Below, in pieces: positions 52,259 to 62,586 of a stretch of DNA of 64,000 bases. The stretch lies in the NCBI GenBank assembly GCA_022239325.1, contig JAKOGP010000001.1, positions 518,870 through 582,869 on the forward strand, in the 5' to 3' direction. Source of the stretch: Flavobacteriaceae bacterium LSUCC0859. Its GTDB lineage: Bacteria; Bacteroidota; Bacteroidia; Flavobacteriales; Flavobacteriaceae. A model generated the notes under the pieces. That model did not search any database. It saw only the letters and a list, made by a program, of their open reading frames with translations, and was not told the origin of the DNA. The first letter of the stretch is position 1; the number at the start of each line of letters is the position of its first letter. Both the position numbers and the translations under genes were made by a program.

Positions 52259-53215
52259 CTACGAGTGCCTAATGGTGTTTGGTAGTTGGCTTTCTTTTTT
52301 AGGGGATTTAAAATCTTTGCGTTGCTTGCCGTAACTGTTATGAGTCATGGATAATTCCGGTAAAACAACCAAGGGACTGCTGCTTATTCTGAGTAGCTTT
52401 TTAGCAATAGCTTCCTTGGAAAGCCCCTCTATAAAGGAGTGGTGATAGTTTAAAAAAGCCATGAGATGTATGCCGTTTTCTTCTATGAATGTACCCAAAC
52501 TCCGAGCGATATTATGAATACCTAGTATCCTGTGCTCCTCAAAAGACAGCTCTGCCAGGTAATTGTGTAACATTCGAATATTAAATTGCTGTGCCGCTGA
52601 GGGTAATTTAGAATCGTCTTTCACCTGAACAATTTGAATACTGGCTTTAAAGTCTTTGGCCAAACCAATGAGTGGGGCTAATTCTGCGGCAGCGAAAAAC
52701 CTGCTAAAATCAGTCGCAAATGCAAAGGATGTGGGCCGCTCAAAGACCACCTTCTCTGGAACCGCAAGAATGGGTATTTGTACCCCAGCTTTTATGAGTT
52801 TTAGTGTTTGGGATCCCATGAAAACCGAGGCTAAACCACTATGCCCTTTACTGCCCATAACAAGAAGGTCATATTTTTTCTCACTCACAGCCTCTATGGT
52901 CGCAGGTACTATTAAATTAAATGAATGCGCTGCACTAAAGCTGTGAGAGACGGAAGCACCCTTAGATTTCGCACATGAAAGTTGTGCGCTAAGCCCCTTT
53001 TTTGCAGCCACCAAGGCCAGGTCTTCCAAAGCGTCTGAGGCTATACTCGATGCCATAAAACGGCTTTGAATAATAGCAGGTGTATAGAGGTGTAGCAGGT
53101 GAAAATGGGTAGGAACCTCTTTAAATATGAACTGAGCATATTCCAAGGCTTTGTATGCCGATGGAGAAAAATCAGTTAAAACTAATATGCTTTTTTTTGA
53201 GATAGATGCTGTCAT
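52259..53215 (-). CDS. Tandem universal stress protein (two Usp domains)
   Basis: 318 residues: two UspA folds (about 7-157 and 162-290). The first contains ILVLTDFSPSAYKALEYAQ and the ATP-loop-like VMGSKGHSGLASVFMGSQTLKLI, close to the GxxGHxGxxxxxxGS(x) motif. The second has FAFATDFSRFFAAAELAPLI and keeps less of the loop (NYHHSFIEGLSKEAIAKKLL). A basic C-terminal tail follows. Usp proteins of this type often belong to low-oxygen regulons. An Fnr-like box and promoter (53235-53278) directly precede it. Confidence 0.92.
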   Translation of the reverse strand: MTASISKKSILVLTDFSPSAYKALEYAQFIFKEVPTHFHLLHLYTPAIIQSRFMASSIASDALEDLALVAAKKGLSAQLSCAKSKGASVSHSFSAAHSFNLIVPATIEAVSEKKYDLLVMGSKGHSGLASVFMGSQTLKLIKAGVQIPILAVPEKVVFERPTSFAFATDFSRFFAAAELAPLIGLAKDFKASIQIVQVKDDSKLPSAAQQFNIRMLHNYLAELSFEEHRILGIHNIARSLGTFIEENGIHLMAFLNYHHSFIEGLSKEAIAKKLLRISSSPLVVLPELSMTHNSYGKQRKDFKSPKKESQLPNTIRHS

Positions 53216-53234
53216 TTGCTGCAGTATGAAAAGA

Positions 53235-53278
53235 CAAAACTAGCAGCGAGCAGGACCCAAAACAATGACAAATATCAG
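53235..53278 (-). promoter_or_regulatory. Fnr-like box and promoter of usp
   Basis: Minus strand: box CTGAT-ATTT-GTCAT (53265-53278), TTG (53263-53265), a 20-bp spacer and TAGTTTTG (53235-53242). The box centre is 33 bp from the -7 centre, which puts the box near -41 from the expected start: class II activator geometry. The TGA of the box is also the stop codon of the fnr-type gene (53275-53277). Confidence 0.7.
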
Positions 53279-53958
53279 TTTTGTGTAAGCTGCTCCATTT
53301 TTTTTTCATCTGCCACCCCAATTTTCTTCCCAGAACTGTAAATGAGCCCTTGCTTTTTAAACTCTGAAATCATTCGAATAGCAGACTCTGTAGCCGTCCC
53401 AACAATATCTGCCAGGTCTTCTCTAGAAAGGGTAATGCTGAGAAAACCATCTGAGTCTGTTCCAAAGGTCTGGTGCAAATACAAAAAAGTAGCAGCCAGC
53501 CTCTGTTTTACGGTCTTCTGAGACATATTCACAATAACCTCGTCTGCAGCCTTTAAATCATGAGCCATATGGCGGAGCACCTCTACAGCAAAATCCGGGT
53601 TGTTCTGTAAAGTTTTAGCAATATGGTCTTTTGAAATAAAACAAACTTCCATGTCTGCTACAGCTTTTGCCGTGAGATTGGCCTGCTCTTCAGCAACCAG
53701 AGATCTCTGCCCCAAAAGCTCTCCTTTACTAGCCATCTTAACAATCTGGTTTTTTCCATTGGCACTGAGCTTGGAGAGTAAAGAAACTCCATCTTTCACA
53801 CAATACACTCCATGGAGTTGGTCTCCCTCTGAGAAAAGGATCTCTCCTTTTTTAATTTGCTTAATTTGCTTGGAATCTGAAACCGATTTAAGTTCCTCTT
53901 TGCTCATCGCTCTGAGGGAATTAAACTGGCGTACAATACAATTTTCACAACGGCTCAT
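53275..53958 (-). CDS. Crp/Fnr family transcriptional regulator
   Basis: 227 residues from ATG 53958. The N-terminus has MSRCENCIVRQFNSL, with Cys4 and Cys7. A cyclic-nucleotide-binding-like beta roll covers about 25-115 (KKGEILFSEGDQLHGVYCVKDG, with another Cys). A long dimer helix precedes a winged HTH (about 160-220) whose recognition helix reads TATESAIRMISEF. The Glu and Arg equivalent to E209 and R213 of E. coli Fnr are kept, while S212 is Ile. An ATG at 53964 is an alternative; the frame upstream to 54036 overlaps the divergent promoter and is not part of the gene. Whether it holds an Fe-S cluster is uncertain. Confidence 0.92.
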   Translation of the reverse strand: MSRCENCIVRQFNSLRAMSKEELKSVSDSKQIKQIKKGEILFSEGDQLHGVYCVKDGVSLLSKLSANGKNQIVKMASKGELLGQRSLVAEEQANLTAKAVADMEVCFISKDHIAKTLQNNPDFAVEVLRHMAHDLKAADEVIVNMSQKTVKQRLAATFLYLHQTFGTDSDGFLSITLSREDLADIVGTATESAIRMISEFKKQGLIYSSGKKIGVADEKKMEQLTQN

Positions 53959-54038
53959 GCCCATAACTTTTGTGATATAAAAATACAAAATCCAGTGGCA
54001 TGCTGTTAGATTTTGTAAATAAATCCAGAAAAACAAAA

Positions 54039-54082
54039 CTGATAATTGTCATAGAAAGTAAGAGTCTTGCTGTTTTTCTTTG
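54039..54082 (+). promoter_or_regulatory. Fnr-like box and promoter of ccoI
   Basis: Box CTGAT-AATT-GTCAT (54039-54052), one base different from the usp box. A -7-like TTTCTTTG (54075-54082, one mismatch) is centred exactly 33 bp downstream. The -33 position is TAG, poor, as expected for an activator-dependent promoter. The box lies in the ccoI/fnr divergent region and could also affect fnr. Confidence 0.65.
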
Positions 54083-54086
54083 TGAT

Positions 54087-56519
54087 ATGCAAAAATCTGC
54101 CTCCAAAAAAGCGCCTACAAAAACCAACACATGCTTTCACTGTGCAGACCCCTGTGGGGATCAAAAAATTAACTATGACAACAAATACTTTTGCTGCCAA
54201 GGATGCAAAACCGTCTACCAGCTTTTTGTTCAGAATGAGATGGAGACTTTTTATGAACTTCAAAGCAATCCAGGCCATACTCCAAAGGAAGTGGGTGGGA
54301 AGTACGACTATTTACGTACTGAGTCTATTGCTCAAAAGCTCCTGAGTTTTTCCAGTGACACCCATGCCATTGTATCTCTCTACATTCCAGCCATTCATTG
54401 CAGCTCCTGTATCTGGCTCTTAGAAAACCTGAGCAAACTCCAAAAAGGCGTGCTTCAGTCTGAGGTGAACTTTCCAAAGAAAACGGTTCAAATTCAGTAT
54501 TATCCAAAGGAGACCAATCTATATGAGTTGGTCATGTTGCTCAGCCACATAGGTTATGAACCTTATATTAGCTTAGATAAAGACCCACAAAAAAAGCCAC
54601 CCAAAGACCGAAGCCTAATCTATAAACTCGGTTTGGCCGGCTTTGCCTTTGGCAATATTATGTTTCTCTCTTTTCCTGAGTATTTTGAAACTTCAGAATT
54701 TTGGTTGGACCAATACAAAGGGTTGTTTAGAGGCCTCACTTTATTGTTTTCACTCCCGGTGGTGGGCTATGCAGCTACCGATTATTTAAAGAGTGCCTAC
54801 AAGGGGCTCAGGGCCAAACATCTAAACATAGACCTGCCTATTTCATTAGGGATTATTGCTCTTTTTACACGTTCTGTAACAGACATACTCATGGGCTGGG
54901 GACCTGGGTTTTTAGACAGCCTCTCTGGCCTAATTTTCTTCTTATTGTTAGGGAAATTTTTTCAGCAAAAAACCTATCAGCACCTCTCTTTTGAGAGAGA
55001 CTACACCGCCTACTTTCCCATGGCGGCTACCCAAATAGACTCCAATGGAAAAGAGCAACACAAACCCATTCACCAAATAGAAGAAGGAGACACCTTACTC
55101 ATTAGACATCAGGAAGTTATTCCTGTAGACGGTGTTGTAAGCCAGGGGCATGCCGCAATAGATTACAGCTATGTAAGTGGAGAGTCTACCCCCTATTCCA
55201 AGGAGGTGGGAGACGCTGTATTTGCAGGAGGCAAACAAATGGCAGCCGCCATAGAAATTACAGCCACCAAAACCGTCTCTCAAAGCTATCTGACACAATT
55301 GTGGAGCCATGCCGCCTTTAGCGGTAAAGACAAATTACCCTTTCAACACTTTACAGATCGCATATCCAAACGCTTTACCATAGCCATATTAAGTATTGCT
55401 GTAGCCGCTGGGATGGTCTGGCTGTTTCTTGAGCCAGCGCAATCCCTGCATGTCTTTACAGCGGTACTCATTGTAGCCTGTCCCTGTGCCTTGGCCTTGG
55501 CAGCCCCGTTTACCCTAGGAAATATGCTGCGAATTTACGGACGGCAAGGGCTATACCTAAAAGACATTCATGTCATAGAAAAAATAGCTGGGATAAACAG
55601 CTTTGTCTTTGACAAAACAGGCACCCTTAGCAGTACCCAAAAAAGCCACATAGAATACCATGGGGCTCCACTTCATGGTAGAGAATTAGCCCTGCTTAAA
55701 AACAGCTTTAGAAATGCCAACCACCCACTGAGCAGGACGCTGTACGATTACTTGCCAGAGGCGGCCATTCAACTGCCTATTGAATTTCACGAGATACTTG
55801 CTCAGGGGATAGAGTGTCATTTTGCCCAACATAGCGTTAAGGCAGGGGCAGCGTCTTTTACAGGCGCTACTGGGGTCCGTTTAAAAACAGCTACCCGAGT
55901 ACATATAGCCATAAACAACAAATACAAAGGATTTTATGAGTTTAAAACCCCATATAGAGTGGGTATTAGATCCCTCATTTCCAGATTGAAAAACAAGCAA
56001 ATCTATGTTTTTTCTGGAGACCAAGACACCGAAAAACAAGCACTTATAGCAATGGGTTTCCAAGCAGACCACTTGTTTTTTAACCAAAAACCAGAGGATA
56101 AACTACGGCAAATAGAACATCTCCAAAACAAGGCACGCAGGGTGATGATGGTGGGCGATGGACTCAATGACGCCGGAGCACTAGCCAAAAGCGACGTCGG
56201 TTTGGCCCTGTCAGAAGATATTGCCGTATTTACTCCAGCCTGTGATGGTATTTTAGAAGCAGGGCAATTGCTTCATTTAGACCAATTTCAAGCATCGGCC
56301 CAAAGGGCCATGAAAATTATACAATACAGTCTAATTGGCTCTCTTTGTTACAACCTCATAGGCATTGGTTTTGCTGTGAGTGGCCACCTAGAACCCGTAG
56401 TAGCAGCTATTCTCATGCCGCTCAGCGCCATTAGCATAGTGGGGTATACCACCTTGGCTACCCATAGGATAGGTAAAAAACTCCAAGCCCTTAAAAGTCA
56501 ATCACCACTCCAAAACTAG
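54087..56519 (+). CDS. ccoI: cbb3 oxidase copper-transporting P1B-type ATPase CcoI
   Basis: 810 residues. N-terminal Cys-rich segment (TCFHCADPCGD, YFCCQGCKTVYQLF), then an HMA-like domain with HCSSCIWLLENL (about 110). Eight TM helices follow, with the copper motif ACPCALALAAP (Cys465, Cys467), phosphorylation motif DKTGT (Asp509) and hinge GDGLNDAGAL (about 690). The Cys-rich N-terminus is the mark of the CcoI/FixI group, which supplies copper for cbb3 oxidase assembly. ATG 54087 is chosen because the frame upstream overlaps the Fnr-like promoter. Its 3' end overlaps the convergent receptor gene by 29 bp. Confidence 0.95.
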   Translation: MQKSASKKAPTKTNTCFHCADPCGDQKINYDNKYFCCQGCKTVYQLFVQNEMETFYELQSNPGHTPKEVGGKYDYLRTESIAQKLLSFSSDTHAIVSLYIPAIHCSSCIWLLENLSKLQKGVLQSEVNFPKKTVQIQYYPKETNLYELVMLLSHIGYEPYISLDKDPQKKPPKDRSLIYKLGLAGFAFGNIMFLSFPEYFETSEFWLDQYKGLFRGLTLLFSLPVVGYAATDYLKSAYKGLRAKHLNIDLPISLGIIALFTRSVTDILMGWGPGFLDSLSGLIFFLLLGKFFQQKTYQHLSFERDYTAYFPMAATQIDSNGKEQHKPIHQIEEGDTLLIRHQEVIPVDGVVSQGHAAIDYSYVSGESTPYSKEVGDAVFAGGKQMAAAIEITATKTVSQSYLTQLWSHAAFSGKDKLPFQHFTDRISKRFTIAILSIAVAAGMVWLFLEPAQSLHVFTAVLIVACPCALALAAPFTLGNMLRIYGRQGLYLKDIHVIEKIAGINSFVFDKTGTLSSTQKSHIEYHGAPLHGRELALLKNSFRNANHPLSRTLYDYLPEAAIQLPIEFHEILAQGIECHFAQHSVKAGAASFTGATGVRLKTATRVHIAINNKYKGFYEFKTPYRVGIRSLISRLKNKQIYVFSGDQDTEKQALIAMGFQADHLFFNQKPEDKLRQIEHLQNKARRVMMVGDGLNDAGALAKSDVGLALSEDIAVFTPACDGILEAGQLLHLDQFQASAQRAMKIIQYSLIGSLCYNLIGIGFAVSGHLEPVVAAILMPLSAISIVGYTTLATHRIGKKLQALKSQSPLQN

Positions 56520-58983
56520 GAATGGCTGCACCAGCGCTTTGCTCAATTTCTATGAGACTTCTCGGGCTAAGCGGCATGCCGTTGGCGTCCCGGGAAAGTC
56601 CGTATGTAGGCGGCTGTGGATTGCTAGAGCCTAGGGCATTTTGTACTTCTACGAAAAAATTAAAAGACCATTTTTCATAATACCATTTCTTGTCAAATCT
56701 AAAGTCTAACTGGCTAAAAGGCGCCAGTTTTTCACTACCCAGCGCATTGTAATCCAATATAATCTCAGGGTAAAAAGCCGTAGTTTGGGCTACATCTGTA
56801 GGCACATATGGCGTGGCAGCAGCATAGCGAAAACGGCTACTCACCTCCCAATTTTTTGGCAATTTATAGCCTGTGGTAAAAGACGCCAGATGCCTACTAT
56901 CCCATACAGAAGGCCTAAACACCTCTGGATCTAAGCCACTAAAAGTAGAATAGAAATAAGTGTAGGAGAAAATTCCAAAGAATTTCTGGGTGAGTTTTTG
57001 TTGCCAGAGTAGCTCCAGCCCATAGGCTTTTCCTTTTCCAACAGAGGCAATGGCCTCGTTGCCAAGTACCTCAAATCCCGCACCTTTATTGGCTATGGAA
57101 ACGCCGTCTGCCACAGAAACTGGATAGTCTGAATAGTATTTATAAAATCCCTCTAGGGACAATCTAGCAGCTGGGTTTAGTATTTTTTCTACCCCCAACA
57201 CCAAATGAGAAGAACGGGTGTAATCCAGATTTTGGTTTACCAATTCCTGTGTTTGGTCTCTGTATCCCAACATGGTGTAAGGTGGTATTTTATAGTATAT
57301 TCCAGCGGTACCGTTGAGCTTCCAACTAGGTGCTAACGCATAGGAGGCAGAGAGTCTGGGAGAGAGTGTTTTTAGCAGGGAACTCCCTTTAGTAAAGCTG
57401 TCTGCGTCTGCGCGCAGGCCAAGAGATACAGACAAACGGTCTTCAAAAAAATCTCTGGAGCCCTGACCAAAAAACCCATAATTATAAAAATCTAAGTCCG
57501 TGTTGTAGGTATATGCTGGGCGGCTACTGAGGGTGGTGTTTTCATAAAGGGCACGCTGCAAATGTAATCCATAGCTCCATTTCCATTCCCCTTCAAAGCT
57601 GGTTACTGTGGCCCTGAGTTTGGTTTCAGACTCCAGGGCGTCATTTTGAAACCTGAGATCTTCTTGGGTGTCGTTGTCATTATACTGGCTAAAGGTATTC
57701 CACAAACTGTTGTTACTCAGACTAAGCTCCATAAATCCAGAACGCTCCTTAAATCTCCTCTTCCAAGTAGCTCCAATGGTATTGGTGTTTTGAAAGATCA
57801 CAGGCACCTGGTCAAAGGTAGCAATCTGTTCTGGGGTATAGTCTGCTGTGGGAGGGATAACCGTAAACTTATCTATACTCCCCAGACCTATAAATGAAAG
57901 GCTATTGTAGGCGTCTATCTTGTGATTTAATTTGTATTGATAGTCCCAGTAATCTGGTCTAAACGGCAGTCCAATGAGCTCAAACAAAAACTGCAAATAG
58001 GAGCGGCGTACAGAGAGCAGAAGGTCTGTTTTAGGTGCAGCTCCTGCTGCCTTGTCTGCTTTTCCTCTAGCTTTACTGCGCAAAGGGGTGTCTATGGTTA
58101 CGGCCGCCTCTGAAGCACTCAATCTAAAATTAGCTGCAAATCCGTTGGGGTTGGCATCTCTTTGGCTAAACTGTAGCACTCCCGAGAGCGGGTTGTTGTA
58201 TTGGGCCCCAAAGGCCGATGCTGAAAGTCTAACGTCTGAAATGAAGGATACATTAAGCATACCTACCGGACCTCCAGAACTCCCCTGGGTACTAAAATGG
58301 TTAATATTAGGTATTTCTATGCCATCTAAGTAATACACCACCTCATTAGAAGCGCCTCCTCTAATAATAAGGTCATTTCTAAAACCTCCAATGGAGGGAG
58401 ATACACCCGGAAGGGTCTGTGCCACCTGAACCACGTCATTGTTTGCACCTGGATAAGAGGCTATTTCTACCGCAGAAAGAGACTGGGTAGAAAGCGGTGT
58501 TTCTTTGGGGCGGTTTATAGGACTCAGAGCCACTACTGCCTCCTCTAAACTTTCTGAGGCTTCTTCTAATATAAAATTCAAAGGAGGGGTTCCAACAGGT
58601 TTAATTTGAAAATTAAAAACTGTTTGGGTTTTAAACCCCAAATAACTGGCCTGAACGGTATAGGAACCAGGGGGGATATTTTCTATGAGGTATCGGCCAT
58701 TTTCGTTAGAAATGGCCCCAAAAGAAGTACCTTCTAACACCACGGTAGCTCCGAAGAGTGGGTTTTGGGCGGGATCTAGAATTTGGCCAGAAAGCGAAGC
58801 TGTGGCCCTAGGAGTACTGCTCTTTTCTAAAACCAAGGCAGCGGCCGGAGAGGGAACCCTTGGTCCAGTAGATGTTTGAGTGCTTAGGGCTTGACCGTTT
58901 TGGGTCTGTAAATTGTTGTTTTGAGCCCAACTAAAAATGGGCCATAGGGCCCACAACAGCCCCATCCATATGGTTTTTTTCAT
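56491..58983 (-). CDS. TonB-dependent outer-membrane receptor with carboxypeptidase-regulatory-like domain
   Basis: 830 residues. Signal peptide (MKKTIWMGLLWALWPIFSWAQ), then a CarboxypepD_reg-like domain (about 63-145: LSGQILDPAQNPLFGATVVLEGT, PPGSYTVQASYLGFKTQ). The plug domain follows (VVQVAQTLPGVSPSIGGFRNDLIIRGGASNEVVYYLDGIEIPNINHF, about 180-226). The rest is a beta barrel. No SusD gene is adjacent, so it is not a glycan-type SusCD pair. It sits between ccoI and ccoS on the opposite strand and overlaps ccoI tail to tail. Metal uptake for oxidase assembly is conceivable from context only. Confidence 0.92.
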   Translation of the reverse strand: MKKTIWMGLLWALWPIFSWAQNNNLQTQNGQALSTQTSTGPRVPSPAAALVLEKSSTPRATASLSGQILDPAQNPLFGATVVLEGTSFGAISNENGRYLIENIPPGSYTVQASYLGFKTQTVFNFQIKPVGTPPLNFILEEASESLEEAVVALSPINRPKETPLSTQSLSAVEIASYPGANNDVVQVAQTLPGVSPSIGGFRNDLIIRGGASNEVVYYLDGIEIPNINHFSTQGSSGGPVGMLNVSFISDVRLSASAFGAQYNNPLSGVLQFSQRDANPNGFAANFRLSASEAAVTIDTPLRSKARGKADKAAGAAPKTDLLLSVRRSYLQFLFELIGLPFRPDYWDYQYKLNHKIDAYNSLSFIGLGSIDKFTVIPPTADYTPEQIATFDQVPVIFQNTNTIGATWKRRFKERSGFMELSLSNNSLWNTFSQYNDNDTQEDLRFQNDALESETKLRATVTSFEGEWKWSYGLHLQRALYENTTLSSRPAYTYNTDLDFYNYGFFGQGSRDFFEDRLSVSLGLRADADSFTKGSSLLKTLSPRLSASYALAPSWKLNGTAGIYYKIPPYTMLGYRDQTQELVNQNLDYTRSSHLVLGVEKILNPAARLSLEGFYKYYSDYPVSVADGVSIANKGAGFEVLGNEAIASVGKGKAYGLELLWQQKLTQKFFGIFSYTYFYSTFSGLDPEVFRPSVWDSRHLASFTTGYKLPKNWEVSSRFRYAAATPYVPTDVAQTTAFYPEIILDYNALGSEKLAPFSQLDFRFDKKWYYEKWSFNFFVEVQNALGSSNPQPPTYGLSRDANGMPLSPRSLIEIEQSAGAAIPSFGVVIDF

Positions 58984-59008
58984 AGCGATTCAAAATTAAG
59001 AATAAAAG

Positions 59009-59052
59009 CTGACAAATATCATTTTTTAAGCCCCTCTAAGCGTCTAGTTTTA
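59009..59052 (+). promoter_or_regulatory. Fnr-like box and promoter of the ccoS-ccoNO-ccoQ-ccoP cluster
   Basis: Box CTGAC-AAAT-ATCAT (59009-59022; its complement reads ATGAT-ATTT-GTCAG, close to the usp box). A -7-like TAGTTTTA (59045-59052, one mismatch) is centred exactly 33 bp downstream. Predicted start near 59056, about 13 nt before the ccoS ATG. Confidence 0.68.
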
Positions 59053-59068
59053 CCAAAAATTAACCAAA

Positions 59069-59278
59069 ATGGGTGTTATTTACTTACTTCTGACTATAAG
59101 TGTGGTGGTGGCTCTTGGCTTTTTTGCTGCGTTTATTGGAGCGGTACGCCAGGGCCAGTTTGACGACCCCTATACCCCAGGAGTTCGCATGCTTTTTGAG
59201 GACGAGCTGGTAAAGCCAAACCAAGACCAAAAAGAAAATCTGGACAAAAATATCACTAAAAACAAACTCCATTCCTAA
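59069..59278 (+). CDS. ccoS: cbb3 oxidase assembly protein CcoS
   Basis: 69 residues: one N-terminal TM helix (about 3-25), then the CcoS signature GAVRQGQFDDPYTPGVRMLFED (about 27-48) and a polar tail. CcoS is needed to insert heme/copper cofactors into cbb3 oxidase. It is the first gene of the oxidase operon; ccoNO begins 5 bp after its stop. Confidence 0.95.
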   Translation: MGVIYLLLTISVVVALGFFAAFIGAVRQGQFDDPYTPGVRMLFEDELVKPNQDQKENLDKNITKNKLHS

Positions 59279-59282
59279 TCCT

Positions 59283-61457
59283 ATGGCGCAACTAGAGCAG
59301 TTTTACTACGACAATAAAATTGTCAAAAAATTTATTCAGGCTACCATTTTTTGGGGCCTTATTGGTACCCTAGTGGGACTTACCCTGGCCTTTATGTTTT
59401 TATTTCCCAATATGACAGACGGGATTTCCTGGCTCAGTTTTGGCAGGCTCAGACCACTGCATACCAATGCCGTTATTTTTGCCTTTGTGGGTAACGCTAT
59501 TTTTGCAGGGGTATATTACTCCACCCAAAGGCTGTTAAAGGCCAGAATGTTTAGTGATTTTCTGAGCCAGTTTAACTTTTGGGGGTGGCAGGCCATTATT
59601 TTGGCAGCAGCCATCACCCTTCCTCTAGGCTATACCACCTCTAAGGAATATGCAGAATTAGAGTGGCCTATAGACCTGGCCATTGCGGTGGTTTGGGTGG
59701 CTTTTGGATGGAACCTGATTGGTACCATGCTCCGAAGAAGGCAGCGCCACTTGTATGTAGCTATTTGGTTTTACCTGGCCACCTTTGTGACAGTGGCTGT
59801 GCTCCATATTTTTAATAGTTTATCCATACCTGTAGGCGCTTTAAAAAGCTATCCGGTATATGCGGGTGTTCAGGACGCTCTGGTACAATGGTGGTACGGA
59901 CACAATGCCGTAGCTTTTTTCTTAACTACGCCCTTTTTAGGTCTCATGTATTACTTTGTGCCTAAAGCTGCAGGAAGACCAGTATACTCTTACCGCCTTT
60001 CTATTGTGCATTTCTGGTCTCTGATTTTTATCTATATCTGGGCTGGACCCCACCACCTATTGTATTCTGCCTTGCCAGATTGGGCGCAAAACCTTGGGGT
60101 AGCCTTTTCCATCATGCTCATTGCCCCCTCATGGGGTGGGATGATTAATGGCCTACTCACCCTGAGGGGTGCCTGGGATAGAGTGAGAACAGACGCCACA
60201 CTAAAATTTATGGTGGTGGCTATTACAGGTTACGGGATGGCCACCTTTGAGGGGCCTATGCTGTCTTTGAAAAATGTAAATGCTATTGCCCACTTTTCAG
60301 ACTGGATTATAGCGCACGTTCACGTGGGTGCCCTGGCTTGGAATGGGTTCCTCACCTTTGGAATGATCTACTATTTAGTGCCAAAACTATTCAAAACAGA
60401 TTTGTACTCAAAGGGGTTGGCCAATGCCCACTTTTGGGTAGGAACACTAGGAATTGTGCTCTATGCATTGCCTATGTATGTAGCTGGATTTACCCAGGCA
60501 CTCATGTGGAAAGACTTTAATCCAGACGGCACCTTAGTCTATGGAAACTTTTTGGAAACCGTTCACGAGATTATCCCCATGTACTGGATGCGAGCCATTG
60601 GAGGCACCCTATACATTATTGGGATGTTCGTTATGTTGTACAACCTAGTAAAAACTGTAAAGTCGGGCTCAAAAGTAGTAGATAGTTTGGCAGAGGCTCC
60701 TGCTATGGTCTCTGTTTCTAGTAAAAGAACCTTGGGGGAGACCTTTCACAGTTGGTTGGAGAGAAAACCCATTCAACTCACCATACTGGCTACTATAGCC
60801 ATTCTCATTGGGGGGATTATTCAGATTGTTCCCACCATCTTGGTAAAATCTAATATTCCAACCATTAGCAGTGTAAAACCATACACGCCTTTGGAACTTG
60901 TAGGAAGAGATCTTTACATTAGAGAGGGCTGTGTGGGTTGTCACTCTCAGATGGTAAGACCTTTTAGATCTGAGGTAGAGCGCTATGGACCATATGCCAA
61001 AGCCGGAGAATTTGTATATGACCATCCTTTTTTATGGGGTTCTAAAAGAACCGGCCCAGACTTGTTAAGAGTGGGTGGGAAATATTCAGACAACTGGCAT
61101 TTTAATCATATGTATGACCCGCAAACTACCTCTTCTGGCTCTATCATGCCAGGGTATAAATGGATGATTACAAACAAGGACAACCGCTCAGATATTCAGA
61201 CTAAAATGAGAGCCATGGCTAGCTTAGGAGTGCCCTATACCCAAGAAGATATAGACCAAGCCTTTGAGCAAATGGAGGCTCAAGCCACCCAGATAGAACA
61301 AAATTTGTATTCAGATCCAGATTTTGTGAGTTCCTATGAGGCAGATAAGGCTGCAGCAACCGCAGCTGGAGAAACATTTATCCCTATGAAGGACCGAGAA
61401 ATAGTAGCGCTAATTGCTTACTTACAAAGACTGGGAACAGACATAAAAATTAAATAA
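59283..61457 (+). CDS. ccoNO: cbb3-type cytochrome c oxidase, fused subunits CcoN and CcoO
   Basis: 724 residues. Residues 1-480 are the CcoN heme-copper subunit: about 12 TM helices with RLRPLHTNAVIFAFVGNAIF (heme b ligand), WYGHNAVAFFLTTPFLGLMYY (Cu_B ligand and the cross-linked Tyr region), AGPHHLLYS (Cu_B histidines) and HFSDWIIAHVHVGALAWNG (heme b3/b ligands). Residues 500-724 are CcoO: a TM anchor and a monoheme cytochrome c with CVGCH (Cys550, Cys553, His554) and MPGYKW for the Met ligand. A CcoN-CcoO fusion is typical of Bacteroidota. The enzyme is a high-affinity terminal oxidase of microaerobic respiration. Confidence 0.97.
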   Translation: MAQLEQFYYDNKIVKKFIQATIFWGLIGTLVGLTLAFMFLFPNMTDGISWLSFGRLRPLHTNAVIFAFVGNAIFAGVYYSTQRLLKARMFSDFLSQFNFWGWQAIILAAAITLPLGYTTSKEYAELEWPIDLAIAVVWVAFGWNLIGTMLRRRQRHLYVAIWFYLATFVTVAVLHIFNSLSIPVGALKSYPVYAGVQDALVQWWYGHNAVAFFLTTPFLGLMYYFVPKAAGRPVYSYRLSIVHFWSLIFIYIWAGPHHLLYSALPDWAQNLGVAFSIMLIAPSWGGMINGLLTLRGAWDRVRTDATLKFMVVAITGYGMATFEGPMLSLKNVNAIAHFSDWIIAHVHVGALAWNGFLTFGMIYYLVPKLFKTDLYSKGLANAHFWVGTLGIVLYALPMYVAGFTQALMWKDFNPDGTLVYGNFLETVHEIIPMYWMRAIGGTLYIIGMFVMLYNLVKTVKSGSKVVDSLAEAPAMVSVSSKRTLGETFHSWLERKPIQLTILATIAILIGGIIQIVPTILVKSNIPTISSVKPYTPLELVGRDLYIREGCVGCHSQMVRPFRSEVERYGPYAKAGEFVYDHPFLWGSKRTGPDLLRVGGKYSDNWHFNHMYDPQTTSSGSIMPGYKWMITNKDNRSDIQTKMRAMASLGVPYTQEDIDQAFEQMEAQATQIEQNLYSDPDFVSSYEADKAAATAAGETFIPMKDREIVALIAYLQRLGTDIKIK

Positions 61458-61463
61458 TAAGCC

Positions 61464-61688
61464 ATGCTAAAATTTGCTAAAAATTATATGGAAACCATAG
61501 AAGGGGTAGCCACCTACCCGATGATTTCACTAGCCATTTTCTTTTTGTTTTTTGTGGTTTTATTTGCCTGGGTGTTTACCGCCTCTAAAGGCTATATTGC
61601 TCAAATGAGTGCCATTCCACTTGAAGAAGAGAGCAGCCTAGAAAACACCATTGATAACCCTTTAAAAAGCACGAATCATGAAAAATAA
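61464..61688 (+). CDS. ccoQ: CcoQ-like small membrane subunit
   Basis: 74 residues with one strongly hydrophobic helix (about 15-38, MISLAIFFLFFVVLFAWVF) and an acidic C-terminal tail. It has the position and size of CcoQ/FixQ, which stabilises cbb3 oxidase. Sequence identity within CcoQ is always low, so the call is mostly positional. It lies 6 bp after ccoNO and overlaps ccoP by 11 bp. Confidence 0.8.
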   Translation: MLKFAKNYMETIEGVATYPMISLAIFFLFFVVLFAWVFTASKGYIAQMSAIPLEEESSLENTIDNPLKSTNHEK

Positions 61689-62586
61689 ATTCCCCTGGTA
61701 CTTTAGAATCCCCCTCTTATTTTTTGGAATTTGGGGGCTCATGGAGTTTTTCATAGACGGTGGAGACCAACCTGCCTTTATCGCTTATCCCATTACACAA
61801 GCCTTCTTGCTTTTTATTTTGCTACTACTTATTAGTATAGAGCTTATCATAAGTGCCATTGAAAATGTCATGTTCCAAACGCTTTCTGCAGAGGCCCAGC
61901 AGCGGTACCTAAGTGCAGAAACCAAACCAATGATATCTTTTAAATGGCTCAGAAGCCTATATCTGAAGCTTTTAGGTCACGACCAAAAGCGCCCTGAGGA
62001 GGCCATTGAATTGGACCACAATTACGACGGCATTCGCGAACTAGACAACAATTTACCGCCCTGGTGGGTTTATATGTTCTATGCTACTATGCTATTTGGG
62101 GTGGTCTATTTAGTTCGTTTTCACCTAATTCATGACTACGATCAAACCCAAGAATTTGAACAAGAATTGGCCCAGGCACAAATAGATATTGAAAACTATA
62201 AAAAGACTGCAAAAAACCTGGTAGATGTGAATACGGTGAGCTTACTAACAGACGCCTCAGATCTAAAAGCAGGTAAAACCATTTTTGAAAATAATTGTGT
62301 GGCCTGTCATATGGCAGACGGTGGGGGCGGAATAGGCCCCAACCTCACAGACACACACTGGATTTTAGGGGGGGGTATAAAGAAAGTATTTGAAACTATC
62401 TCTGAAGGAGGTAGAGACGGAAAGGGCATGATTGCCTGGAAGCAAAGCCTTAAGCCTTTAGAAATGGCGCAGGTGGCCAGCTATGTCATTGGCATGCAGG
62501 GACAAACTCCTGCCAATCCAAAAGCTGCAGAAGGAGATATACTATGGCCAGAAGAGCTTCCAAGCCTTGAAAAAGCAAAGGAATAA
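61678..62586 (+). CDS. ccoP: cbb3 oxidase cytochrome c subunit CcoP (single heme motif)
   Basis: 302 residues. Three hydrophobic segments (about 10-25, 35-62 and 128-145); LPPWWVYMFYATMLFGVVYLV is the CcoP N-terminal signature. The cytochrome c domain (about 195-285) has CVACH (Cys207, Cys210, His211) and a Met ligand near GMIAWKQ. Proteobacterial CcoP carries two CxxCH motifs; only one is present here, so it is monoheme. The additional TM pair at the N-terminus is a Bacteroidota feature. Confidence 0.95.
   Translation: MKNKFPWYFRIPLLFFGIWGLMEFFIDGGDQPAFIAYPITQAFLLFILLLLISIELIISAIENVMFQTLSAEAQQRYLSAETKPMISFKWLRSLYLKLLGHDQKRPEEAIELDHNYDGIRELDNNLPPWWVYMFYATMLFGVVYLVRFHLIHDYDQTQEFEQELAQAQIDIENYKKTAKNLVDVNTVSLLTDASDLKAGKTIFENNCVACHMADGGGGIGPNLTDTHWILGGGIKKVFETISEGGRDGKGMIAWKQSLKPLEMAQVASYVIGMQGQTPANPKAAEGDILWPEELPSLEKAKE

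Follow-up and report, generated by a model that had tools for sequence, protein, structure and literature searches.

Are three near-identical palindromes beside the genes of a cbb3-type cytochrome oxidase the operators of the Fnr-type regulator encoded among them? The question is raised by a 64,000-nucleotide stretch of DNA from Flavobacteriaceae bacterium LSUCC0859 (G000:C4:518870-582869; hereafter the window), whose genome comprises 2.17 Mb in 12 contigs. At the right end of the window lie, in order, usp (minus strand), an fnr-type gene (minus), ccoI (plus), a TonB-receptor-like gene (minus), and then ccoS, a fused ccoNO, a small open reading frame (ORF) and ccoP (all plus). Sequence comparison led us to read the three boxes as putative class II operators of the intervening regulator acting at low oxygen, a reading to which we assign a probability of roughly 0.88.

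The three 14-bp palindromes claimed in an earlier note on this DNA were read directly from the sequence as CTGATATTTGTCAT upstream of usp (53265-53278, minus strand), CTGATAATTGTCAT between fnr and ccoI (54039-54052, plus strand) and CTGACAAATATCAT upstream of ccoS (59009-59022, plus strand), each a predicted Fnr-type operator conserved at related genes as described below. The Fnr-type gene (53275-53964) does lie between the first two, and the final 4 bp of its ORF (53275-53278) fall within the usp box. The core was said to be shared in one orientation, which held for the usp and ccoI boxes, whereas the ccoS box is inverted when read towards its gene, a difference that hardly matters in a palindrome. 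Defining the gap as the number of bp between the 12-bp core TGAYnnnnRTCA and the 8-bp -7 element TAnnTTTG (six specified positions), we found that the octamer begins 23 bp past the core at all three boxes, in agreement with the claimed centre-to-centre spacing of 33 bp. The -7 elements are TAGTTTTG for usp (53242-53235, minus strand; predicted start near 53230), TTTCTTTG for ccoI (54075-54082, plus strand; predicted start 54087) and TAGTTTTA for ccoS (59045-59052, plus strand; predicted start near 59057). Only usp carries a perfect TAnnTTTG, the other two each missing one position; among gaps of 8-40, gap 23 alone had at least five of the six specified positions matched at each box. No pair of box and -7 element at gap 23 appeared in 300 dinucleotide shuffles of the window, in which boxes alone averaged 0.15 strand-matches per shuffle (maximum 4). 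The pattern TGAYAWWTRTCA occurs at five places in the genome, three of which are the window boxes, and its reversal at two. A window search with TGATNNAWTTNNGTCA was discarded because this pattern, being of the wrong length, failed to detect the boxes, making its 7 matches (14.1 expected) irrelevant, and a match at C4:499714 was set aside as lying inside a QueG-like gene.

According to the main text of a Flavobacterium psychrophilum transcriptome study, the -7 element spans -12 to -5 (PMC9723704), which places its centre at -8.5 and a box centre 33 bp away at -41.5. The earlier placement of the boxes near -41 is thus borne out by the mapped flavobacterial -7 position, the start sites here being predicted, and a box centre near -41.5 is the position of class II CRP/FNR sites; of the 23 FNR-activated E. 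coli promoters whose start is known, 19 are described as having the site at -41.5 ± 4 (PMC3688515). This suggests that the class II position has been kept despite a different sigma consensus. If the -7 element spans -12 to -5 here too, transcription of ccoI would begin at the A of the sole in-frame ATG of the gene (54087), which predicts a leaderless mRNA; in the relative L235, the ccoI ATG stands 23 nt past the -7 element.

Conservation was assessed in relatives obtained by a search of genome contigs with CcoNO, from which the best 80 of 590 loci were kept. The ccoS set comprised 53 loci (L006-L057 and L071), and 49 of these had exactly one TGAYnnnnRTCA 200-350 bp before ccoN; of the four left out, L029 and L043 lacked a box, L057 had two and L038 had no sequence upstream. 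When the 49 promoters were aligned by the box alone, TAnnTTTG emerged in the logo at one fixed place, and TAnnTTT[GA] stood at gap 23 in 44 of them. Upstream of ccoI, a box was present in all 41 related loci with a covered gene start, with TTTG at gap 23 in 35. The full TAnnTTT[GA] was found there in just 2 of the 41 loci, the TA being mostly lost, as it is in the window, which suggests that ccoI promoters depend strongly on an activator. At usp, six of seven covered loci carried a box, and all six had TAnnTTT[GA] at gap 23. The fnr and ccoI genes diverge within 400 bp in 34 of the 38 loci having both, in most cases with a box between them. Upstream of ccoN in three more distant loci (L061, L064 and L067), two palindromes lie exactly 22 bp apart, or two helical turns.

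Beyond these promoters, we searched genomes with CAAANNTA-N(10-36)-TGAYAWWTRTCA, using the reversed pattern, summed by hand, as a control. In 100 family genomes the pattern matched 327 times in 79 genomes (control 21), and among the matches listed (150 places in 39 genomes; 27 gaps allowed) 112 had gap 23, compared with 7 at gap 22, 6 at gap 24 and 6 at gap 11. In a phylum sample of 198 genomes, the family part yielded 90 matches in 19 genomes, 63 of them at gap 23 (control 2), as against 52 matches in the 179 other genomes, 14 at gap 23 (control 21). The scope "Bacteroidota" given in the earlier note was therefore too broad, and the box signal appears to be mainly a Flavobacteriaceae trait. 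Class I spacings (gaps 37-66) were also tried and rejected, with 74 matches against 35 in the control and at most 6 at any single gap. Several gap-23 sites outside the family (L287, L292, L293, L295 and L302) have G...C outer bases (GTGAY....RTCAC), hinting that the outer operator base differs between clades. In L303-L308 (G310 and G390, from another family of the same order), 33-35 bp separate a palindrome from TAnnTTTG, in most cases with ATTCTAAAT or ATTTAGAAT between them; we take the genes behind these sites to be PepSY-like and TonB-type. Some of the matches outside the Flavobacteriaceae come from this one family, at gaps of 33-34 bp.

The same sites define the operator more closely. In the 49 ccoS promoters the base before TGAY was A (0.73), C (0.24) or T (0.02), and the base after RTCA was T in all 49; at the 112 genome-wide sites, which were chosen by pattern, the free outer base was A (0.62), C (0.24), G (0.08) or T (0.06). 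The claim that the boxes start with CTGAT rather than TTGAT was accordingly right about the rarity of T, but the usual outer base is A, and CTGAT is a minority form. The E. coli-type operator TTGATnnnnATCAA was not recovered: the TGAT core is kept and the outer base is A or C. Behind the box, the ccoS promoters share a run of T (0.98, 0.94, 0.88 and 0.92) at about -33 to -30, the expected location of a -33 element.

For the 112 gap-23 places, the first ORF of at least 60 codons (or open-ended) past the -7 element was taken as the target and the sequences scanned with Pfam, a few places yielding no ORF. Radical SAM and FixS domains were each found 16 times, Usp 10, cytochrome c 8, Thioredoxin_9 5, PFL 4, ribosome hibernation factor 4, POR 3 and PTA 3; one hibernation factor gene, one usp and one ferredoxin gene were caught twice, so the counts of 4, 10 and 3 include one repeat each. 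All 16 radical SAM targets begin with a hemN-like N-terminus; here and below, the names hemN-like, feoB-like, sufA-like and, where not scanned, mqo are presumptive, given from N-termini. The 112 sequences span 70 Pfam families, many of them unrelated to oxygen. Together with the hemN of this genome, they nevertheless include targets such as hemN, cbb3 oxidase, usp and pfl that are typical of Fnr/Anr-type regulons, and the prediction that the genes behind box promoters form a low-oxygen regulon (hemN, ccoS, usp, cytochrome c and pyruvate formate-lyase) is strongly supported. Conservation, spacing and target genes together also favour the earlier proposal of a redox regulon around the cbb3 cluster.

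In this genome we read the nine matches with 0 or 1 mismatch. Those at gap 23 with no mismatch precede usp, hemN and a pyridine-nucleotide oxidoreductase; the hemN site lies 2.7 kb past the end of the window (TIGR00538, 406 bits against a cut-off of 325), and look-alikes of the oxidoreductase in L120, L226 and L243 carry the same box signal. Matches with one mismatch include ccoI, ccoS, a feoA-like/feoB-like pair and a 41-aa membrane ORF. The feoA-like site has its mismatch in the box, and the protein scores 27.6 bits against an NCBIfam cut-off of 102, making it a candidate target only. The small membrane protein ORF of 41 codons (L138:1563-1688; G000:C7) stands behind a perfect palindrome, TGATATATATCA, with a one-mismatch -7 element at gap 23, and some 1.5 kb upstream of this ORF is another gene of the CRP type. 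C4:476443, where the genes are wrongly oriented, and a peroxiredoxin site with a broken box (C6:260738) were excluded from the regulon.

The regulator itself (229 aa; minus strand) belongs to the Crp/Fnr superfamily, with cNMP_binding (PF00027, 63 bits) and HTH_Crp_2 (PF13545, 56.2 bits) both above cut-off. It aligns with Aliivibrio fischeri FNR over residues 5-226, and its structure model (pLDDT 88) shares the FNR fold (TM 0.79-0.80). In place of the three N-terminal and one central cysteines of the E. coli type, it has a CxxC and a central Cys that align with those of FNR, Asn15 opposite the third N-terminal Cys of FNR, and an extra Cys55. Cys6, Cys9, Cys55 and Cys108 were invariant in all 38 aligned regulators (L010, for which the start codon chosen was not ATG, was left out). 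The structure model places Cys55 on the third strand of the roll and Cys108 on its last; in the cNMP roll, strands 3 and 8 are neighbours. Proteins of the window type had CxxC, Cys55 and Cys108 in 41 of 41 cases, whereas family paralogues showed a C-x2-C-x4-C N-terminus and no Cys at position 55 in all 12 readable cases, with the central Cys in 11 of the 12 (fragments L320, L322 and L325 left out). This reciprocal pattern points to Cys55 as a relocated Fe-S ligand and may reflect one ancestral change. The three-Cys paralogues L317, L319, L321, L323, L324, L326-L328 and L330-L332 share a Cys in KCKKGQQ or KCKKSQQ that is absent from the window Fnr.

The recognition helix was correctly described as ESAIR with Ile at the position of E. 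coli Ser212, and this Ile was invariant in 38 of 38 regulators. The helix thus departs from the E..SR of the E. coli type, the Glu and Arg being kept. Ser212 of E. coli Fnr reads the first T of the operator.

These observations are consistent with a mechanism in which, as oxygen falls, the regulator, probably carrying an oxygen-labile Fe-S cluster on Cys6, Cys9, Cys55 and Cys108, would bind [A/C]TGAYAAATRTCAT. With the box centre 33 bp from the -7 centre, that is, at -41.5, it would act as a class II activator and switch on the cbb3 oxidase and its assembly genes (ccoI and ccoS-NO-P), usp and distant genes such as hemN. Binding by this protein, its Fe-S cluster, the direction of control and the start sites are here inferred.

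A second, shorter spacing was found on the fnr side: of the 33 loci with a box, 20 have a -7 element at a distance of 9-11 bp and 4 have one at gap 23 (two further loci had no box). A search of 299 family genomes for gaps of 8-14 found 85 matches, spread over 65 genomes (control 25, summed by hand); 29 were at gap 9, 15 at gap 10 and 19 at gap 11. Thirty short-gap loci were read, yielding 31 promoters, 7 of them without an ORF; the 24 genes were 11 fnr, 3 sufA-like, 1 mqo-like, 2 PAS kinases, 1 usp, 1 ccoI and 5 others. Ten of the short-gap fnr are 46-64% identical to the first one, and L250 holds a further mqo with a short gap. The shorter spacing (fnr, sufA-like and mqo) likely means repression, since the box, with its centre at -27.5 to -29.5, then overlies the core promoter and since fnr, suf and mqo are expected to be lower without oxygen; the short-gap usp and ccoI cases do not plainly fit this. 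The TonB-receptor gene of the window has a -7-like element, TAATTTTG (58991..58998, minus strand; G000:C4:577860-577890), at gap 11 relative to the ccoS box. For this gene the box is centred at about -29.5, and we predict that the gene is repressed through it, as fnr would be in many relatives. Taken together, we lean towards a Flavobacteriaceae Fnr in which the fourth ligand has moved to strand-3 Cys55, the operator is of the form A/C...T, and spacing would set the sign of control, 33 bp activating and 19-21 bp repressing.

Several results weigh against assigning the boxes to this regulator. The protein scores 91.9 bits against the NCBIfam Fnr model PRK11161, well under the cut-off of 228. 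In this genome, the looser pattern TGAYNNNNRTCA was not enriched (72 against 87 in the control), the box with a -7 element at gap 23 and at most two mismatches showed no excess (62 against 62), and no -7 element at gap 23 was found on the fnr side of the box in this species. Among the 100 family genomes, an Fnr orthologue (E <= 1e-58) was present in 57, of which 53 had box promoters and 4 had no box match at all, and 26 of the 43 genomes without a close orthologue keep box promoters: 17 of the 33 without a match at 1e-25 and 9 of the 10 with a weaker match. The association of orthologue and box (Fisher p about 1e-5, 57 versus 33) ignores phylogeny and genome size. Box promoters in genomes without a close orthologue indicate that another regulator can use the boxes, and in these relatives the reader may be a different CRP-type protein that shares the recognition helix. 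Candidates are the receiver-CRP fusions L311-L316, of about 350 aa, which lack the cysteines and have an Fnr-like recognition helix in all six cases read (TETAIR or TESLIR); a scan confirmed the receiver, cNMP and HTH_Crp_2 domains in two of them, and one fusion, in G078, is followed by a usp gene and is itself located among box promoters. It could thus be argued that such a fusion, paired with a sensor kinase in a FixLJ/FixK-like arrangement, is the main reader of the boxes and Fnr a secondary one. We consider this improbable, as this genome encodes just one other HTH_Crp_2 protein, whose different helix lacks the E..IR motif, and box promoters are commoner in genomes with an Fnr orthologue (mean 4.42 versus 1.39 per genome).

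If the Fnr-type protein is the reader, its signal might be nitric oxide or another redox cue instead of oxygen. Dnr/HcpR-type CRP/FNR proteins sense nitrogen oxides, and the Fe-S cluster here is predicted only; the four invariant cysteines and targets comprising hemN, cbb3 oxidase and fermentation genes instead of denitrification genes make this alternative very unlikely. That the three palindromes are look-alikes produced by chance is scarcely credible: although three sites make a small sample and this genome shows no enrichment of loose patterns, the shuffles yielded no such pair, 112 of the 150 matches listed fall at one gap, and the boxes are conserved at orthologous promoters. We therefore retain low-oxygen class II control by the intervening Fnr-type regulator as the preferred reading.

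The remaining genes of the locus were annotated with Pfam. The usp gene (52259..53215, minus strand) encodes a universal stress protein (Usp, 61.4 bits), and ccoI (54087..56519, plus) a copper P-type ATPase (E1-E2_ATPase and ATPase-cat_bd). The TonB-receptor-like gene (56491..58983, minus; Plug and CarbopepD_reg_2) is divergent from ccoS and splits it from ccoI here; in L006, L007 and L010, which are close relatives, ccoI and ccoS are adjacent within about 650 bp. On the plus strand follow ccoS (59069..59278; FixS, 65.7 bits), the fused ccoNO (59283..61457; COX1 and FixO), a small ORF assigned to the ccoQ position by location, with no Pfam match (61464..61688), and ccoP (61678..62586; FixP_N and Cytochrome_CBB3).

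Compared with the FNR of E. coli and A. fischeri, the system is alike in fold, in the CxxC and central Cys, in the Glu and Arg of the recognition helix, in the TGAT core and in class II promoters with the box at -41.5 and targets of the cbb3/hemN/pfl type; it differs in Asn15, the invariant Cys55, the Ile for Ser212, the outer operator base (A/C, not T) and the sigma consensus TAnnTTTG. Ligands can move in this family, as those of Bacillus Fnr are described elsewhere in the protein, three C-terminal cysteines and Asp141 (PMC3520743), in contrast to the N-terminal CxxC, strand-3 Cys and strand-8 Cys here. The best match in the PDB by both sequence (E 1.3e-24) and structure (TM 0.86) is the Crp/Fnr protein 2gau of Porphyromonas gingivalis, but that match starts past the CxxC (query 21-225) and has no Cys opposite Cys55 or Cys108. 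The Crp-like regulator BT4338 of Bacteroides, also CRP-type, from the same phylum and with a palindromic motif, differs in its reported consensus, wwwTATGTTnTAnAACATAwww, and in controlling sugar-use genes (PMC3878776). Under oxygen limitation, cbb3 and heme genes are reported to be up in F. psychrophilum, and the words "fnr" and "crp" do not occur in the main text of that study (PMC9723704); an anammox community study attributes carbon sensing to a Flavobacteriales homologue (PMC8510549). We found no account of a Flavobacteriaceae Fnr operator or of Cys55 among the titles and abstract openings listed in searches of the open literature or in the papers cited here, and an earlier report in a subscription journal is possible.

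The family is large and little studied, with fish pathogens and numerous bacteria of marine and soil habitats among its members, and the box signal predicts the low-oxygen gene set of its genomes. That the class II position appears to be retained under a sigma factor that recognizes a different promoter raises the question of how Fnr contacts the unusual Bacteroidota sigma factor. The window-type Fnr and its paralogues, in turn, would offer a natural ligand-swap pair for Fe-S oxygen sensors.

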